DNA from: Halobiforma nitratireducens JCM 10879
GTDB lineage: Archaea; Halobacteriota; Halobacteria; Halobacteriales; Natrialbaceae
Assembly: GCF_000337895.1 (NCBI RefSeq)
Contig: NZ_AOMA01000167.1
Span: forward strand, 7,338-57,273
DNA length: 49,936 bases
Reading direction: 5' to 3'
The notes under the pieces were generated by a model that was not told where the DNA came from, did not search any database, and was given only the letters and a program-made list of their open reading frames with translations. Below, piece after piece: positions 36,405 through 43,458 of this stretch. Made by a program: the position numbers and the translations under genes. How positions within the stretch are numbered: position 1 is the stretch's first letter; every line of letters begins with the position of its first letter.

Positions 36405-36758
36405 CTACGCAGCCGAGGCAGCCGGCGACGTCGTGTAAGACACCGACTCGACGCCGGCTTCCTCGAGGGCGTCGTCGATCGCGTTCGCACCGATTTCGGT
36501 CGCCCGTTCGGCGTCGTCGGCCTCGACGGTCACTGTCACGGCAAACGAGACGGTGATCGTGTACGGGTCGAAGGGACCAGCCGGGGGTTCGTATACGTCC
36601 GCGTCGTCGAGCTCCCAGTCGGTGATCGTTCCCTCGGCGGTCAGTTCCTCGAGCGTTGCGGTTACTTCCTCTGTTGCCTCGTCGCGGGCCGTGGTGTCGC
36701 TGCCCTCGTGTAGTGTCACGAGCGTCGTTCCCTCTCGTGAGACGGCGTATTTGGTCAT
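36405..36758 (-). CDS. Conserved hypothetical haloarchaeal protein, 117 residues
   Basis: Starts MTKYAVSREGTTLVTLHEGS and contains ITVSFAVTVTVEADDAERATE, an alternation typical of a small alpha/beta protein. Acidic, no cysteine, no membrane segment. A longer frame upstream has a basic leader and is rejected. A 7-bp inverted repeat AAGGGTT/AACCCTT (36779-36794) lies just upstream. Function unknown. Confidence 0.68.
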   Translation of the reverse strand: MTKYAVSREGTTLVTLHEGSDTTARDEATEEVTATLEELTAEGTITDWELDDADVYEPPAGPFDPYTITVSFAVTVTVEADDAERATEIGANAIDDALEEAGVESVSYTTSPAASAA

Positions 36759-36903
36759 CGTACTGGTACTGTCACTGAAAGGGTTTGAACCCTTGGGAAG
36801 AAACCCCGTGGAGAGTCGCCCGCCACGTCGCCCCGCCGAATTCGGCCGCCGGCGAGTGTCGGCCGTCCGCTTATCGGTCTCTCCCGTCGATTCCTGCCCG
36901 AAG

Positions 36904-37152
36904 ATGCAACGAAACCGACGATCCACGCGACCGACGCGTAGACGACTGCTCGGAGCGGCGGGCGCAACGCTGGCGACGGTGACCGTCGCCGGTTGTGGCG
37001 GCCCGGGCGAACAAGAGGAAGACGAAGAGGGTGAAGGAGACGTCCAGCCCGAGGGCCAAGAAGACGAGGAAGACGACGATCAGGCCGACATGGAGGAAGG
37101 GACAGGAAACGGGCAGGAGACCGAGAACGACGGGGAAGACGAAGACGGATAA
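36904..37152 (+). CDS. Tat-exported acidic lipoprotein
   Basis: 82 residues. TRRRLLGAAGATLATVTVAGC is a Tat signal with lipobox VAGC; the mature chain is almost entirely Glu, Asp, Gly, Gln and Asn (for example EQEEDEEGEGDVQPEGQEDE). It should be a small lipid-anchored, highly charged surface protein. Similar small acidic lipoproteins are common in haloarchaea but functions are unknown. Start ATG 36904; longer frames precede it without support. Confidence 0.7.
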   Translation: MQRNRRSTRPTRRRLLGAAGATLATVTVAGCGGPGEQEEDEEGEGDVQPEGQEDEEDDDQADMEEGTGNGQETENDGEDEDG

Positions 37153-37903: not shown

Positions 37904-38452
37904 ATGACCGATCAACTCGCCTGGGAGACTCAGGAACGACGAGTAGCTTACGCGTGTCCGGGCTTCGAGGTCGTTAACGAATCCGTTCGCCTTCCGGACG
38001 GAACCGAGACCGAGTTCGACTACGTCTCCGAACCCGCGAGCGTCTGTGTGCTTCCGTTTACCCCTGACGGCGACGTGGTCTGTATCGAGGAGTGGCGACA
38101 GGCCGTCTCGCGCATCAGCCGCGGGCTGCCCGTCGGCGGCACCGAACCCGAGGACGACGACCTCGAGGCCGCGGCACGCCGTGAACTCGCCGAGGAAACC
38201 GGTCACGAAGCCGCAGAGATCGAGCCGCTGGTGACCGTCGAACCGGCAAACGGGATCGCCGATTCGGTGATGCACTTCTTCGTCGCGCGAGAGTGTCGGC
38301 CGACGGCCGAACAGGAACTCGACCACAACGAGAGTATTCGCGTCCGGCAACGACCGTTCGGCGACCTCCTCGCGGACGTTCGCGAGGGCGACGTTCGCGA
38401 CGGTCGCGCGGTGCTTGCGGTGTCGTACTACCAGCTGTTCGACGCCGAGTAG
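37904..38452 (+). CDS. Nudix hydrolase, ADP-ribose pyrophosphatase-like
   Basis: 182 residues. The Nudix box is GGTEPEDDDLEAAARRELAEETGHEA (split here: GGTEPEDDDLEAAA then RRELAEETG), with the REL-x-EE-x-TG catalytic core. VEPANGIADSVMHFFVARE fits the ADP-ribose pyrophosphatase-like subgroup. Such enzymes hydrolyse ADP-ribose or related nucleoside diphosphates. ATG 37904 has GCGTTTTTCA about 30 bases upstream. Precise substrate inferred. Confidence 0.85.
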   Translation: MTDQLAWETQERRVAYACPGFEVVNESVRLPDGTETEFDYVSEPASVCVLPFTPDGDVVCIEEWRQAVSRISRGLPVGGTEPEDDDLEAAARRELAEETGHEAAEIEPLVTVEPANGIADSVMHFFVARECRPTAEQELDHNESIRVRQRPFGDLLADVREGDVRDGRAVLAVSYYQLFDAE

Positions 38453-38599: not shown

Positions 38600-39919
38600 T
38601 TACGCCAGCGCGGCGATCGACAGTTCGTCGTTGTCGTCGTCGTTATCGCCGTCATCGTTGTCGTCGAAATCGTTCTCGTCGTCCTCGACATCGTCCTCCT
38701 CGTCCGCGACAGCTTCGAGGTCCTCCGTGTCCTCTAAGGTAACCGTATCGGCGTTCGCGTCGTCGATCGAGATTGCGGTGGCTGTGGCTTCTGAGACCGT
38801 CTCGTCTTCGGCGTCGGTTTCGTCATCGTCCTCGTCGTTCTCGTCGTTCTCGTCGTCGACGCCGTTGTCGTTCATCTCGTCGGCTTCGTCATCGTCGACA
38901 GCGTTCTCATCCTCTTCGTCGGCTTCGTCATCCTCGTCCGCTTCCTCGAGGGACTCGACGGTCATCGTGTCGATCGCGATCGACTCGACATCGAACTGTT
39001 CGATGGTGAGTTCGCCGATCTCCTGGGTTTCGACGTCGTCGTTCGCTTCGTCGTCTTCGTCAGTCTCGTCGTTCTCATCGTCGGCGACAGGTGGTTCGTC
39101 ATCGTCGTCTTCGGCAGCCTCGTCGTCGTTGTCGTCGTCGTTAAACAGCCCCTCGAAGAAGTCACCGATCTGATCGAGGATTCCGTCGTCGTCCTCGATC
39201 TCGAGGTCTGAGATCGTCATCTGCTCGACGTCCATCGTCTCGATGGTGAGGTCTTCGACGGTGAGTTCGTCAGCGTCCTCGTCGATCAGTTCCTGTCCGT
39301 CGCCCTCCATCTCGTCGTTTTCGTCGGCAGCGACGTCGTTGTCGTTGTCGTTGTCGTCCATCTCGTCGTCATCCATCTCATCGTCTTCAGCATCCGCCTC
39401 AGCATCGACCATCTCGTCGTCCTCGTCATCTACCTCGTCGTCATCCATCTCGTCGTCCTCGATCTCGAGGTCCTCGACCGAGACGTTCTCGAATTCGAGC
39501 TGTTCGATCTCGATATCCGAGAGCGTCACGTCCTCGACAGTATCGAGATCTTCGACATCGTTGTCGTCGTCAGCAGCCACGCCGTTTTCGTCCTCATCGT
39601 CTTCTATCTCGTCGTTCTCGTCGTTCTCGTCATCTACCTCATCGTTCTCGTTATTCTCGTCATCTTCCTCGTCGACCTCATCCTCGAGTTCCTCCGCATC
39701 GAGCTCGAGTTCGTCGGCGTTCAGCTCTTCGATGGTTGCGTTCTCGATCGTCACGTCATCGAGGTCAAGTGTCTCGACCTGTACGTTCTCGAGTGTTGCG
39801 CTCATGTCTCCGGCGTCGTCGGTCGCCGTGGTCGCAGTCGCGCTGGCGAGGGCGGGCCCCGACAGTGCGACCAGCAGTGCGACCAAAACGACACCGAGCG
39901 TCTGTGGTCGTGAAACCAT
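38600..39919 (-). CDS. Secreted hyperacidic pentapeptide-block protein, paralogue 1
   Basis: 439 residues. The Sec signal MVSRPQTLGVVLVALLVALS + GPALA is identical to that of the downstream-coordinate paralogue at 40433-41725. Five blocks of pentapeptides of pattern [VIL]-x-x-[LVMA]-x lie at about 48-75, 133-155, 221-245, 301-325 and 379-403 (for example VETLD-LDDVT-IENAT-IEELN). Poly Asp/Glu/Asn linkers separate them. A unique amphipathic GILDQIGDFFEGLFN lies at 246-260. The tail is LSIAALA. No transmembrane anchor. Pentapeptide proteins form right-handed beta-helices; short blocks on acidic tethers are unlike known examples. Function unknown. Confidence 0.85.
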   Translation of the reverse strand: MVSRPQTLGVVLVALLVALSGPALASATATTATDDAGDMSATLENVQVETLDLDDVTIENATIEELNADELELDAEELEDEVDEEDDENNENDEVDDENDENDEIEDDEDENGVAADDDNDVEDLDTVEDVTLSDIEIEQLEFENVSVEDLEIEDDEMDDDEVDDEDDEMVDAEADAEDDEMDDDEMDDNDNDNDVAADENDEMEGDGQELIDEDADELTVEDLTIETMDVEQMTISDLEIEDDDGILDQIGDFFEGLFNDDDNDDEAAEDDDDEPPVADDENDETDEDDEANDDVETQEIGELTIEQFDVESIAIDTMTVESLEEADEDDEADEEDENAVDDDEADEMNDNGVDDENDENDEDDDETDAEDETVSEATATAISIDDANADTVTLEDTEDLEAVADEEDDVEDDENDFDDNDDGDNDDDNDELSIAALA

Positions 39920-40432
39920 GCGCTCCGACCTACAGCCGTATTCCGGCTAAAACGAGCCGACTGTTACAGGATTATCTCGGTGCTGTCCGTCGTCCCCTCC
40001 GAGAAACGGCGAGTTGCAAACCTCGGGGCGGGTCCTAATCATTCGTTCATTCGTTCGGTCTCGCGGGCAGTTCGCGAGTCCGGGAAATACCCGAAGACCA
40101 CTCCAGACCGTCGTTTTGCTTGCGGTCGCTGTCGTCTTATCGCACGGGTCACGGAACGAGCCTTTACTTTATTCTCGGTTGCTCCGGTGTCCCCACCGAC
40201 GGCTGCTTGGGGAGCGACTCGGACCTCAGTTTCGGTATTACGACGTTCGATTGACCACGTTCCGCGGCGGTCCGGTCGGACAAAAGAAGTAGAAGCGAAT
40301 CGCTCGGTACGTCACAGTTCGTGAGTCGGCGGAGCCGGTCGGTCCGTCGGCGTCGGCACGCCGTGGAAAGCGGATACGTCCGCCCCCGGCTCCGAACCCG
40401 GCTCGACCGGACGCGGACGACGAACGGCTCGA
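39920..40432. other. Intergenic region between the two acidic paralogues, 513 bases
   Basis: Contains the conserved promoter block of paralogue 1 at its left edge (39948-39973). Further on are ATTCGTTCATTCGTTCGG (about 40040), a short direct repeat, and T-rich stretches such as CTTTACTTTATTC near 40165. No convincing gene. It may hold the end of the transcript of paralogue 2. Confidence 0.55.
39948..39973 (-). promoter_or_regulatory. Conserved promoter block of paralogue 1
   Basis: TAAAACGA ... GACTGTTACAGGATT (plus strand) is shared, with two mismatches, with 41754-41779. The CTGTTACAG palindrome is at 39961-39969 and the TATA-like CGTTTTA about 29 bases from the ATG at 39919. Confidence 0.6.
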
Positions 40433-41725
40433 TTAGCTCAGGACGGCGATCGACAGCGTGTCGTCGTCCTCGTCGTCGTCATCCTCAAGGTCGTCGTCAT
40501 CGTCCTCGAGGTCGTCCAGACCGTCGGCTTCACCGATAGTGAACGACTCGGCGGTCGCGTCGCTCACGTCGATGGACGTGGCGGAGGCCTCCGAGACGGT
40601 CTCTTCTTCGACGTCGTTCTCGTCATCGTGGTCGTTCTCGTCGTTCATCTCGTCGTCATCCATCACGCCGTCATCGTCCATCTCGTCGTCATCGTCGGCG
40701 AGGTCGTTGTCGTCCATCTCGTCGTCGTCATCGAGTTCGTCGTCCTCCTCGTCGACGGATTCGACGGTCATCGAGTCGACGGTTATCTCGTCGACATCGA
40801 ACTGCTCGATGGTGAGGTCCTCGATGTGGTGCTCTTCGACATCGTTGTCTTCGTCGTCAGCCATCTCGTCGTCATCGTCAGCGAGGTCGTCGTCTTCGTC
40901 GTCAGCCATCTCGTCGTCATCGTCAGCGAGGTCGTCGTCTTCGTCGTCAGCCATCTCGTCGTCATCGTCGGCGAGGTCGTCGTCTTCGTCATCGACCATC
41001 TCATCGTCTTCTTCATCGACCTCGTCGTCCTCGATAGTCAGCTCGTCGATCGTGAGCTGATCGACATCCATCGTCTCGATGGTGAGCTCTTCGACCGTGA
41101 CCTCGTCAGCGTCTTCGTCGATCAGGTCGTGCTCGTCGTTTTCGTCGACGCCGTTGTCGTCAGCAAGGGCGTCGTCTTCGTCATCTTCATCGGCCATCTC
41201 GTCGTCATCGTCAGCGAGATCGTCATCCTCCTCGTCTGCCTCATCGTCTTCCATCTCGTCGTCCTCGTGGAGTTCGAGGTCCTCGATCGTCACGTCCTCG
41301 AGTTCGAGGTGCTCGATTTCGACATCGGAGAGGGTGACGTCTTCGTCGTCGACGCCGTTCTCGTCGGCGTCATCATCGTCGAGGGCGTCGTTCTCGTCGT
41401 CGACGCCGTTATCGTTCATCTCGTCGTCTTCGTCGTCAGCCATCTCATCGTCATCGTCGGCGAGGTCGTCATCCTCCTCGTCGACGAGTTCCTGAAGTTC
41501 GTCTTCGTCGACGTCGAGGTCCTCGACGTTCAGCTCCTCGATCGTCGCGTCCTCGACGGTGACGTCATCTAGTTCGAGCGTCTCTACCTCTGTATCTTCG
41601 AGTGTCGCGCCCATGTCTCCCTCGGGGTCGTCCGTCGCGGCCGTTGCGCCTGCCAGGGCAGGTCCCGACAGTGCAACCAGCAGTGCTACCAGAACGACTC
41701 CGAGCGTTTGCGGTCGTGAAACCAT
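40433..41725 (-). CDS. Secreted hyperacidic pentapeptide-block protein, paralogue 2
   Basis: 430 residues, same plan as paralogue 1. Signal to GPALA (AxA-type cleavage), then pentapeptide blocks at about 47-74, 132-156, 211-235, 301-325 and 382-401, for example IEDLT-IEQFD-VDEIT-VDSMT-VESVD. The spacing between block starts is 85, 79, 90 and 81 residues. Linkers are nearly pure Asp/Glu with Met/Ala. A 45-bp tandem repeat encodes the linker near 247-291. The tail LSIAVLS resembles LSIAALA of its paralogue. Upstream of the gene is the conserved promoter block. Likely an extracellular cation-binding or matrix protein; that role is inference. Confidence 0.85.
   Translation of the reverse strand: MVSRPQTLGVVLVALLVALSGPALAGATAATDDPEGDMGATLEDTEVETLELDDVTVEDATIEELNVEDLDVDEDELQELVDEEDDDLADDDDEMADDEDDEMNDNGVDDENDALDDDDADENGVDDEDVTLSDVEIEHLELEDVTIEDLELHEDDEMEDDEADEEDDDLADDDDEMADEDDEDDALADDNGVDENDEHDLIDEDADEVTVEELTIETMDVDQLTIDELTIEDDEVDEEDDEMVDDEDDDLADDDDEMADDEDDDLADDDDEMADDEDDDLADDDDEMADDEDNDVEEHHIEDLTIEQFDVDEITVDSMTVESVDEEDDELDDDDEMDDNDLADDDDEMDDDGVMDDDEMNDENDHDDENDVEEETVSEASATSIDVSDATAESFTIGEADGLDDLEDDDDDLEDDDDEDDDTLSIAVLS
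40861..40995. repeat. 45-bp tandem repeat, three copies
   Basis: Units 40861-40905, 40906-40950 and 40951-40995, the first two identical and the third with a few differences near its end. On the coding strand each encodes 15 residues (DDEDDDLADDDDEMA). Partial further units flank them. Confidence 0.88.
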
Positions 41726-41753: not shown

Positions 41754-41779
41754 TAAAACGAAGCGACTGTTACAGGATT
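41754..41779 (-). promoter_or_regulatory. Conserved promoter block of paralogue 2
   Basis: Twin of 39948-39973; the CTGTTACAG palindrome is at 41767-41775. Both palindromes begin 42 bases from their ATG codons and both TATA-like elements begin 29 bases from them, which argues for shared control. Confidence 0.6.
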
Positions 41780-41976
41780 GTGTCCGAAACAATAGCAGGT
41801 AGAAAATCGCCCCCGCTCGGTAATCCCGCTTTCATCCTGTCGGCGACGATTACGGTCATCGGTCTCGAGATGTCCGAGTCGCTCAAGCGGAATTTCGCTT
41901 TCGCTTGCGGTCGCCGCTGCTGATGTACCTTACGGAGAACGGAACCCTTACCGCCGTGGTCGGTAATACTCGGTCG

Positions 41977-43458
41977 ATGCGCGAGTGCTTCGAACTCAGG
42001 GACGCCGACGCCGGGGGACGGATCGGCGAGCTCACCGTCCCACGAGCGGAAACGACGGTCGAGACGCCAGCGCTCCTTCCAGTCATCAATCCCAATCTAG
42101 ATACGATCAGTCCACGTCGACTCGCCGAGGAGTTCGGCGCAGAGATCCTCATCACCAACTCCTATATCATCCACGGGACCGAGGACGTCCGCGAGCAGGC
42201 ACTCGAGGAGGGGCTCCACGAGTTGCTCGATTTCCCGGGCGCGATCATGACCGACTCCGGATCGTTCCAGCTCTCGGAGTACGGCGACATCGACGTCACG
42301 ACCGAGGAGATCCTCGAGTTCCAGCACGAGATCGGGTCCGACATCGGCACACCGGTCGACATCCCCACCCCGCCGGATGTCTCCCGCGAGCGCGCGGAAG
42401 ACGAACTCGCGACCACCCAGGAACGGCTCGAGGTCGCCGAAGACGTCGACACCGGCGACATGCTCGTCTCCGCACCGGTCCAGGGCTCGACGTACCCCGA
42501 CCTGCGCGAGGAGGCAGGCAGCCACGCCGATGCGACCGATCTGGACGTGTTTCCCGTCGGCGCGGTCGTGCCGCTGATGAACGACTACCGATACGACGAC
42601 ATGGTCGACGCTGTCGCCGCCGCGAAACGCGGGCTGGGTGCGGACGCGCCGGTGCATCTCTTCGGCGCGGGCCACCCCATGATGTTCGCGCTCGGGGTCG
42701 CGATGGGCTGTGATCTGTTCGACTCCGCTGCGTACGCCCTGTACGCCCGTGACGATCGCTATCTCACCGTCCGCGGAACGCGCCAGCTCGCGGAGCTGGA
42801 CTACCTCCCCTGTTCCTGTCCCGTCTGTACCGAGCACTCGCCCGACGACCTCCGCGCGTTGCCCGACCGGGATCGCGAGGAGGAACTGGCCGCCCACAAC
42901 CTCCACGTCACGTTCGAGGAGATTCGCCGGATCAAGCAGGCGATCCGTGCCGGCAACCTCCTCGAGTTGGTCGAACAGCGCGCTCGGGCCCACCCGGCGA
43001 TGCTCGACGGGTACCGGGCACTGCTCGATCACGCCGCGCAACTCGAGCAGTCCGATCCCGTCTCGAAGGGATCGTTCTTCTATACGTCCCACGAGAGCGC
43101 GCGTCGACCCGAAGTTCGCCGCCACCACGAGCGCGTGACACGCCTCGAGACGCCCGACTCGCTGTTTCTCACGGAAGGCGAGCCGGCCCGCGGCGACGAG
43201 TACGACGAATCGTGGCGCGTCGAACCCCCGTTCGGCCCGTTCCCGCGAGCGCTCTCGAAGAGCTACCCGTTCACCGCCGAGCTACCCGAACGGACCGACC
43301 GTGCGGCGCTCGAGGCCGCTGTGGAAGGCGTCGTTCGCCTCGTCGAGGCCAACCCCGAGACCGAGGTGACGCTCGGCCACTGGGGCTGGCCCGACGGCGT
43401 GCTCGAGGCGGTTCCCGAGCGCGTCGAGGTGGTGGACCTGATGGGCGACGGCGACTGA
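41977..43458 (+). CDS. tgtA: tRNA-guanine(15) transglycosylase, archaeal type
   Basis: 493 residues from ATG 41977; a longer frame adds a non-conserved leader. The catalytic region [14 protein letters not shown] contains nucleophile Asp93. The zinc site is PCSCPVC with Cys279, Cys281, Cys284 and His287. The enzyme swaps guanine at tRNA position 15 for preQ0, the first tRNA step of archaeosine synthesis. A box CCCTTA about 30 bases upstream fits a leaderless start. arcS lies 3 kb downstream. Confidence 0.95.

Follow-up and report, generated by a model that had tools for sequence, protein, structure and literature searches.

Closest described systems

Halomucin of Haloquadratum is a haloarchaeal exported protein, single and very large, that is thought to keep water and charge around the cell. 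Here we describe P0001 and P0002, two proteins encoded by adjacent genes in a stretch of 49,936 nucleotides from Halobiforma nitratireducens JCM 10879 (contig NZ_AOMA01000167.1, positions 7,338 to 57,273; hereafter the window), whose likeness to halomucin, and difference from it, are drawn from the general description of that protein. In their internal repeats, P0001 and P0002 are most readily compared with the pentapeptide repeat protein (PRP) superfamily of the Rfr fold, with which they share a five-residue periodicity, hydrophobic residues at positions i-2 and i, and blocks of about four repeats predicted to form beta structure (PMC8145042, available in part). The same source records a signal peptide in the PRP Rfr32 and loops in or between the coils of QnrB1, AlbG, HetL and Rfr23 (24 residues in the last); unlike these, the proteins described here have a linker of 19-175 residues between every block and the next. 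The original prediction, made from the letters of the window, had contrasted them with known pentapeptide helices as long and uninterrupted structures, which is not always the case, as loops of 6-24 residues occur in such helices (PMC8145042, same part). A long loop after every coil, together with exchange of loop chemistry, is not described in the available parts of PMC8145042 or PMC12864828.

We aligned 60 members of the family, namely P0001, P0002 and 58 others from the loci at hand, a non-random set that includes some near-copies. YjbI, a Caulobacter PRP, is secreted, lies at the cell surface and has a quadrilateral beta-helix, traits that the proteins described here may share, but it has conserved cysteine pairs, whereas only 1 of the 60 members has any Cys in its mature part, and the accessible portion of the source describes no acidic or N-glycosylation sequon tethers in YjbI (PMC12864828).

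By the published definition, which asks for eight contiguous repeats with a Leu/Phe centre, the sequences of this family place it outside the PRP superfamily. The longest run is at most 7 repeats in 59 of the 60 members (7 in P0001, 5 in P0002) and 8 in the remaining one, and with a relaxed residue set it is still at most 7 in 55. Among 1435 pentapeptides, one fits the 2006 form of the consensus and 120 the 2019 form (both as given in the available part of PMC8145042); the central residue is Leu or Phe in 285 and otherwise mostly Ile or Val. In neither of the two window proteins does a pentapeptide family of Pfam reach its gathering cut-off, P0001 scoring 12.6 bits against 38 and P0002 giving no pentapeptide match. 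The five-residue periodicity of hydrophobic residues is nonetheless present, and the family may well work like a pentapeptide repeat protein folded coil by coil.

P0001 and P0002 belong to an undescribed family of exported haloarchaeal proteins. Neither has a match in NCBIfam, their Pfam matches are sub-threshold only, and few of the 60 members match even weakly; the isolated Pfam/NCBIfam matches to DNA_ligase_OB, Asp_protease_2 and choice_anch_D (the last in 3 of 60, best E 8.1e-4) were taken as chance. At the level of search listings, which mostly do not cover the subscription literature, we found no publication on such haloarchaeal proteins.

Two exported proteins with five conserved blocks

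The two genes are as follows:

38600..39919, minus strand: type B gene P0001, 439 amino acids; signal peptide, five pentapeptide blocks, acidic linkers and an amphipathic GILDQIGDFFEGLF stretch after block 3
40433..41725, minus strand: type A gene P0002, 430 amino acids; same plan as P0001, without the amphipathic stretch after block 3

As originally predicted, both open reading frames (ORFs) begin with identical Sec signals, residues 1-25 being the same in the two proteins, and their linkers are rich in Asp and Glu (fractions of 0.61 in P0001 and 0.67 in P0002). Over the whole mature part, Asp and Glu account for 210 of 413 residues in P0001 and 226 of 404 in P0002 (51-56%), and Lys and Arg are absent from both. 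The predicted lack of a membrane anchor is borne out: mean hydropathy over 19 residues of the mature part peaks at 0.47 in P0001 and 0.37 in P0002, a pattern search found no lipobox in any of the 60 members, and the C-terminal membrane or sorting segment expected of membrane-anchored S-layer-type glycoproteins has no counterpart, the maximum 19-residue mean hydropathy past residue 40 being 1.19 across the alignment.

The signal peptide (residues 1-27 of P0001 and P0002) is the most conserved part of these proteins, with a mean identity of 72%, which we consider unusual for a cleaved signal. The proportion of synonymous differences (pS; 500 sampled pairs) is not reduced there, at 0.48 against 0.45 in the blocks, and we therefore rejected constraint at the nucleotide level in favour of constraint on the protein.

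Scored with the pattern [VILMFA]x[VILMFA]xx, P0001 holds runs of 7, 5, 5, 4 and 4 pentapeptides starting at residues 41, 131, 219, 304 and 378, and P0002 runs of 5, 5, 5, 4 and 4 starting at 50, 130, 209, 304 and 380. The block positions first proposed are thus right to within 12 residues, and the run lengths are 4-7 where 4-6 had been given. Pentapeptides in runs of at least three number 25 in P0001 and 23 in P0002, against a shuffled mean of 0.6 and maxima of 9 and 7, respectively; the observed totals were reached in 0 of 2000 full and 0 of 2000 local shuffles of each protein. The blocks of P0001, with DNA coordinates derived from residue numbers, are:

39695..39799, minus strand: block 1, residues 41-75
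39464..39529, minus strand: block 2, residues 131-152
39194..39280, minus strand: block 3, residues 214-242
38945..39019, minus strand: block 4, residues 301-325
38714..38800, minus strand: block 5, residues 374-402

The five blocks follow one order throughout the 60 members, with block columns about 99.9% filled. Blocks 2, 3 and 4 are of constant length in 60 of 60; 93% of members share one length of block 5 and 73% one length of block 1 (range 34-36). Linkers 1-4 range over 22-115, 19-93, 37-163 and 25-175 residues. Mean pairwise identity is 60% in the blocks and 31% in the linkers, against 17% expected by chance from composition; the blocks therefore do not vary as the linkers do, whereas random variation of that kind would have counted against the original prediction. 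The hydrophobic h.h.. register is kept through all five blocks, each of blocks 1-4 has invariant residues of its own, and block 5 has nearly invariant ones. Runs of at least three repeats in every block were found in 55 of 60 members, the five failures all falling at block 5. In 8 of 8 between-genome pairs the proportion of nonsynonymous differences (pN) is higher in linkers than in blocks, although linker pS is also higher and part of the difference may be misalignment.

The third linker of P0002 is largely made of a tandem repeat, which suggests from the sequence that linkers may grow by repeat slippage:

40842..41042, minus strand: 45-base tandem repeat, 4.4 copies, 88% matches, covering much of the third linker of P0002

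Predicted fold

AlphaFold models were obtained for P0001 (mean predicted local distance difference test score (pLDDT) 56.5, predicted template modelling score (pTM) 0.48, 129 of 439 residues at pLDDT >=70) and for a relative with short linkers, L060:6518-7561 (mean pLDDT 61.2, pTM 0.53, 126 of 348 residues at pLDDT >=70). Strand is predicted in five of five blocks in both models, with 10-residue pLDDT means of up to 89 and 91, respectively, and the linkers lie mostly below 50. We roughly estimate that a pTM of about 0.1-0.15 would result from separate beads of some 30 residues; the observed values lie well above this, and most ordered residues should therefore share one frame in the models, that is, the blocks would form one core. 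In known pentapeptide proteins, four repeats make one coil (PMC8145042, in the part available), so blocks 2-5 would each amount to about one beta-helix coil and would need to stack. By the same analogy, a single block is unlikely to be stable as a bead on its own. As regards the right-handed quadrilateral beta-helix of the PRP superfamily, with four repeats to a coil, the models give strand in the blocks and no significant Foldseek match.

The original prediction likened the proteins to beads on a string whose blocks stack between chains. Its block-and-linker plan stands, and its proposed test by single-chain structure prediction gave strands in the blocks and low confidence in the linkers; stacking of such beads between chains is made less likely by the fixed order, block-specific residues and one-coil size of the blocks and by the pTM. 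Searching PDB chains by sequence with the full profile returned nothing at E 1, and matches of the N-terminal profile at E 0.74-2.4 were taken as chance.

Exchange of acidic residues and sequons in the linkers

Polyacidity is not a conserved property of the family. The linkers of P0001 and P0002 contain no N-glycosylation sequon; in less acidic members the linkers consist of runs such as DNETEDNET, in which sequon density reaches 13 per 100 residues, and the linkers of members from other taxonomic families are rich in Thr (ETTTE or TPE) or bear sequons. Across the 60 members, linker Asp/Glu content and sequon density are opposed (Spearman rho -0.89), and block acidity varies with linker acidity (0.81). 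Type A and type B linkers of one genome agree with each other (rho 0.85 for Asp/Glu and 0.92 for sequons, 17 pairs). Halobacterium N-glycans contain sulfated iduronic and glucuronic acid (PMC11980604, available in part), and since haloarchaeal N-glycans can be sulfated and uronic, sequons are a possible substitute for Asp/Glu. As a natural experiment, the exchange could show whether acidic glycans do the work of acidic side chains at high salt.

The same chemistry extends to another exported protein. A sequence pattern found a DUF4397-like exported ORF near the family genes in 15 of 42 loci (L034, L035, L037, L039, L041, L042, L043, L045, L046, L048, L050, L051, L053, L056 and L058); Pfam confirmed DUF4397 (PF14344) in two of the 15, those of L045 and L053, the others resting on the pattern. 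These proteins share a locus with the family and change in step with it, their acidity and sequon density tracking the family linkers at rho 0.89 and 0.81 (15 loci), or 0.78 and 0.79 when counted by row (23 rows). They differ in having DUF4397 domains, and the two that were scanned gave no pentapeptide match by Pfam. TgtA, the product of a neighbouring gene, does not track linker Asp/Glu (rho -0.14, 34 loci), on which ground we rejected a mere bias of salt-adapted proteomes as the source of linker acidity; this leaves over the negative correlation of a second control, taken up below.

A putative solenoid with charged loops and its alternatives

In the explanation that we prefer, and would back about as readily as doubt, the five short conserved blocks form one compact, spring-like core with disordered charged or sequon-bearing loops, and the whole is an envelope polyanion. 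Each protein would be exported by Sec and released, as its signal peptide and lack of an anchor suggest. Within one chain, the five blocks would stack in order into one short beta-solenoid, to which block 1 would contribute nearly two coils of pentapeptide beta-helix and each of the others about one. This is consistent with the AlphaFold strands, the pTM, the constant number and order of blocks and their block-specific residues. The linkers would leave this core as loops between coils, disordered and densely negative, their charge supplied by Asp/Glu or, in other lineages, by sequons that in haloarchaea can bear acidic glycans. The protein would then form a stiff rod densely set with hydrated, polyanionic loops, and its export, disorder, charge or sequons and missing anchor point to a soluble polyanion of the cell envelope or extracellular matrix, where it might hold water and counter-ions and keep surfaces apart. 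Types A and B would go back to an old duplication and, under one common and nearly private promoter element, would probably be co-made. More tentatively, and with rather more doubt than confidence, we suggest that such a beta-solenoid, with one long disordered loop per coil and interchangeable loop chemistry, represents a novel type of extracellular protein, in which lineages switch between polyacid, dense N-glycan and Thr-rich (perhaps O-glycosylated) loops in several exported proteins at once. If true, the switch would keep the net polyanion and change how it is made.

Several observations weigh against the single-chain solenoid. The mean pLDDT is just 56.5 and 61.2, the start of block 1 falls below 50 in both models, and the common core depends on pTM in models by AlphaFold, which may over-stack repeats. 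Foldseek found no significant match for either model in the PDB, nor for the L060:6518-7561 model in BFVD (viral models). Pentapeptide_4 matches at E <=0.1 in just 4 of 60 members and Pentapeptide_3 in 2 of 60, the best E among these matches being 2.3e-4. Most of the 23 distant ORFs have no block 5 recognised in place, and the same often holds for blocks 2 and 4. As to linker chemistry, the rows and loci behind the correlations come from related genomes and are non-independent, so that p-values overstate them, and the acidity of the arcS-like protein, a cytosolic control, falls as that of the linkers rises (rho -0.50 for 36 rows and -0.53 for 25 loci), an unexplained result that may come from relatedness or cut ORFs.

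Three other explanations deserve weighing. In the first, the protein is an adhesin or scaffold: a face of the helix would bind another surface component, for example a polysaccharide, the S-layer or the DUF4397 protein, and the charged tethers would serve only to keep it soluble in brine. A CARDB-like C-terminal stretch in some relatives from other taxonomic families (in L082 at E 0.024, with 15.3 bits where the cut-off is 22.7) fits this idea, but the 60 close members show scattered weak hits and no CARDB match; likewise, 15 of 42 loci have the DUF4397-like ORF and in the other 27 none was found, though some of those stretches end nearby. Most of the best Foldseek matches, none significant, are to proteins that act on polysaccharides (3 of 3 and 8 of 9) and that we take to be beta-helices, but the match probabilities are at most 0.02, and on balance we consider a binding role unlikely.

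Stacking between molecules into composite helices, with acidic tethers forming a cross-linked matrix or gel as first proposed, would give a single coil the stacking partner that it needs; the linkers are long enough to bridge molecules, and the blocks do resemble each other (the consensus sequences of blocks 3 and 4 are 59% identical over 22 residues). Yet models of a single chain reach pTM 0.48 and 0.53 as they are, and blocks of constant number and order in 60 members, each with its own conserved residues, are unlike interchangeable beads, so that we hold this arrangement to be quite improbable. We give still less credence to a mostly disordered acidic protein, in which the blocks form beta structure weakly, have no stable fold and are conserved for composition and export only: the low overall pLDDT and the lack of a significant fold match would suit it, but the strict register, the invariant residues, the near-fixed lengths of the blocks and their pLDDT means over 10 residues of up to 89-91 speak against it, as does the excess of linker over block pN, subject to the caveats on pS and misalignment given with those pairs.

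Distribution in haloarchaea

The family is common in its own taxonomic family, Natrialbaceae: P0001 as a query matched at E <=1e-10 in 75 of 101 genomes, and at class level in 85 of 391 genomes at 1e-8, 81 of them from Natrialbaceae. A profile of the signal and block 1 (24 rows) reached 118 of the 391 genomes at 1e-4, 82 from Natrialbaceae and 36 from five other families of the order. Relatives include those of Natrialba hulunbeirensis JCM 10989 and Natrialba sp. SSL1. Beyond Natrialbaceae, ORFs in L079 and L080 hold all five blocks in order, each at E <=2.1e-4, and distant ORFs in L074, L089, L091 and L092 hold blocks 1-4 in order at E <0.01. Among the weakest matches, three f4 ORFs have block 1, two of which also match block 4 (E 7e-4), and the f2 stretches L085 and L087 contain no ORF above the block-1 threshold. 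These genome searches, of the kind originally proposed, support the presence of the same block-and-linker plan and signal in other haloarchaea. The family is widespread in its archaeal family and usually occupies a fixed locus, set out below, that includes a tRNA-modification gene, yet P0001 and P0002 have no convincing match to a Pfam or NCBIfam model.

A phage or plasmid origin was rejected: we found no relative in plasmids, 227 stretches of viral contigs fit a search pattern and none was confirmed as a relative, and the locus is conserved.

Two paralogs at a conserved locus with a nearly private promoter-like element

The genes lie between two conserved neighbours:

41905..43458, plus strand: tgtA-like gene (TGT domain), divergent
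37904..38452, plus strand: NUDIX-domain gene, convergent

The tgtA-like gene stands upstream in the opposite orientation in 51 of 60 members and the NUDIX gene downstream in the opposite orientation in 50 of 60; four misses in each count are short loci outside the comparison. In all 17 loci with both copies, the amphipathic GILDQIGDFF-like stretch after block 3 is missing from the copy on the tgtA side and present in the other. Type B comprises 39 rows, of which 27 fit the strict amphipathic pattern and 12 were assigned by eye. A tree of the block columns has a branch (95/93) that parts 21 helix-less rows, including P0002, from the 39, including P0001, with a midpoint root, a bootstrap that is not settled and four rows relabelled by eye. 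Those four, L056, L057, L062 and L068, lack the helix and were re-read as type A; in the formal label test they fall in the other group, giving 4 changes and no single split. The simplest reading of these sequences is a single duplication, giving A and B, that preceded the radiation of these genera. Two genomes of the same genus have separated copies, A beside tgtA and B beside NUDIX (L061/L062 in G068, L068/L069 in G191), as if the locus had been broken by rearrangement.

Both genes are preceded by a promoter-like element:

39948..39967, minus strand: element GTAACAGTCGGCTCGTTTTA of P0001 (G000:C167:47285-47304, minus 7337)
41754..41773, minus strand: element GTAACAGTCGCTTCGTTTTA of P0002 (G000:C167:49091-49110, minus 7337)

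In 55 of 60 members at least 10 bases of the 13-base sequence CCTGTAACAGTCG are matched, always starting 51 or 52 bases before the start codon, whereas 19 of 1200 random stretches score as high; the other five members score 8 or 9. The 13-base sequence is followed by TCGTTTTA or a similar sequence, and we read the whole as a putative TATA box with an upstream regulatory site. In its own genome, GTAACAGTC-NNN-TCGTTTTA occurs without mismatch only at the two family genes. A wider regulon there was rejected: the one extra match has 3 mismatches, and the reversed control also gave 3 matches at this level. Allowing at most one mismatch, the element has 85 matches in 64 of the 101 Natrialbaceae genomes, against 0 for the reversed control, and in 83 of these 85 cases a family gene starts 29 or 30 bases beyond the end of the match. 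One outlier (G043; L104, 5764-5783) lies beside a NUDIX gene in a 10-kb stretch with no recognisable family block and is likely a relic of a lost type B gene; the other (G081) precedes an ORF with no family block found there, which from its motif we take to be a dehydrogenase. Among 15 ORFs from distant taxonomic families, the best element match is 9-11 of 17 bases. As one nearly private element is common to A and B, the two are probably made together.

The composition of these proteins also bears on their detection. Of the 60 mature proteins, 33 have neither Lys nor Arg and just 11 could yield a tryptic peptide of 6-40 residues, so trypsin-based surveys would tend to miss the family; by contrast, TgtA of the window has 45 Lys and Arg in 517 residues. 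The family may thus be abundant and yet invisible to trypsin proteomics.

Elsewhere in the window, a plus-strand ORF at 36553-37152 has an RRRLLG...AGC stretch followed by an acidic region and resembles a Tat lipoprotein with an acidic tether.

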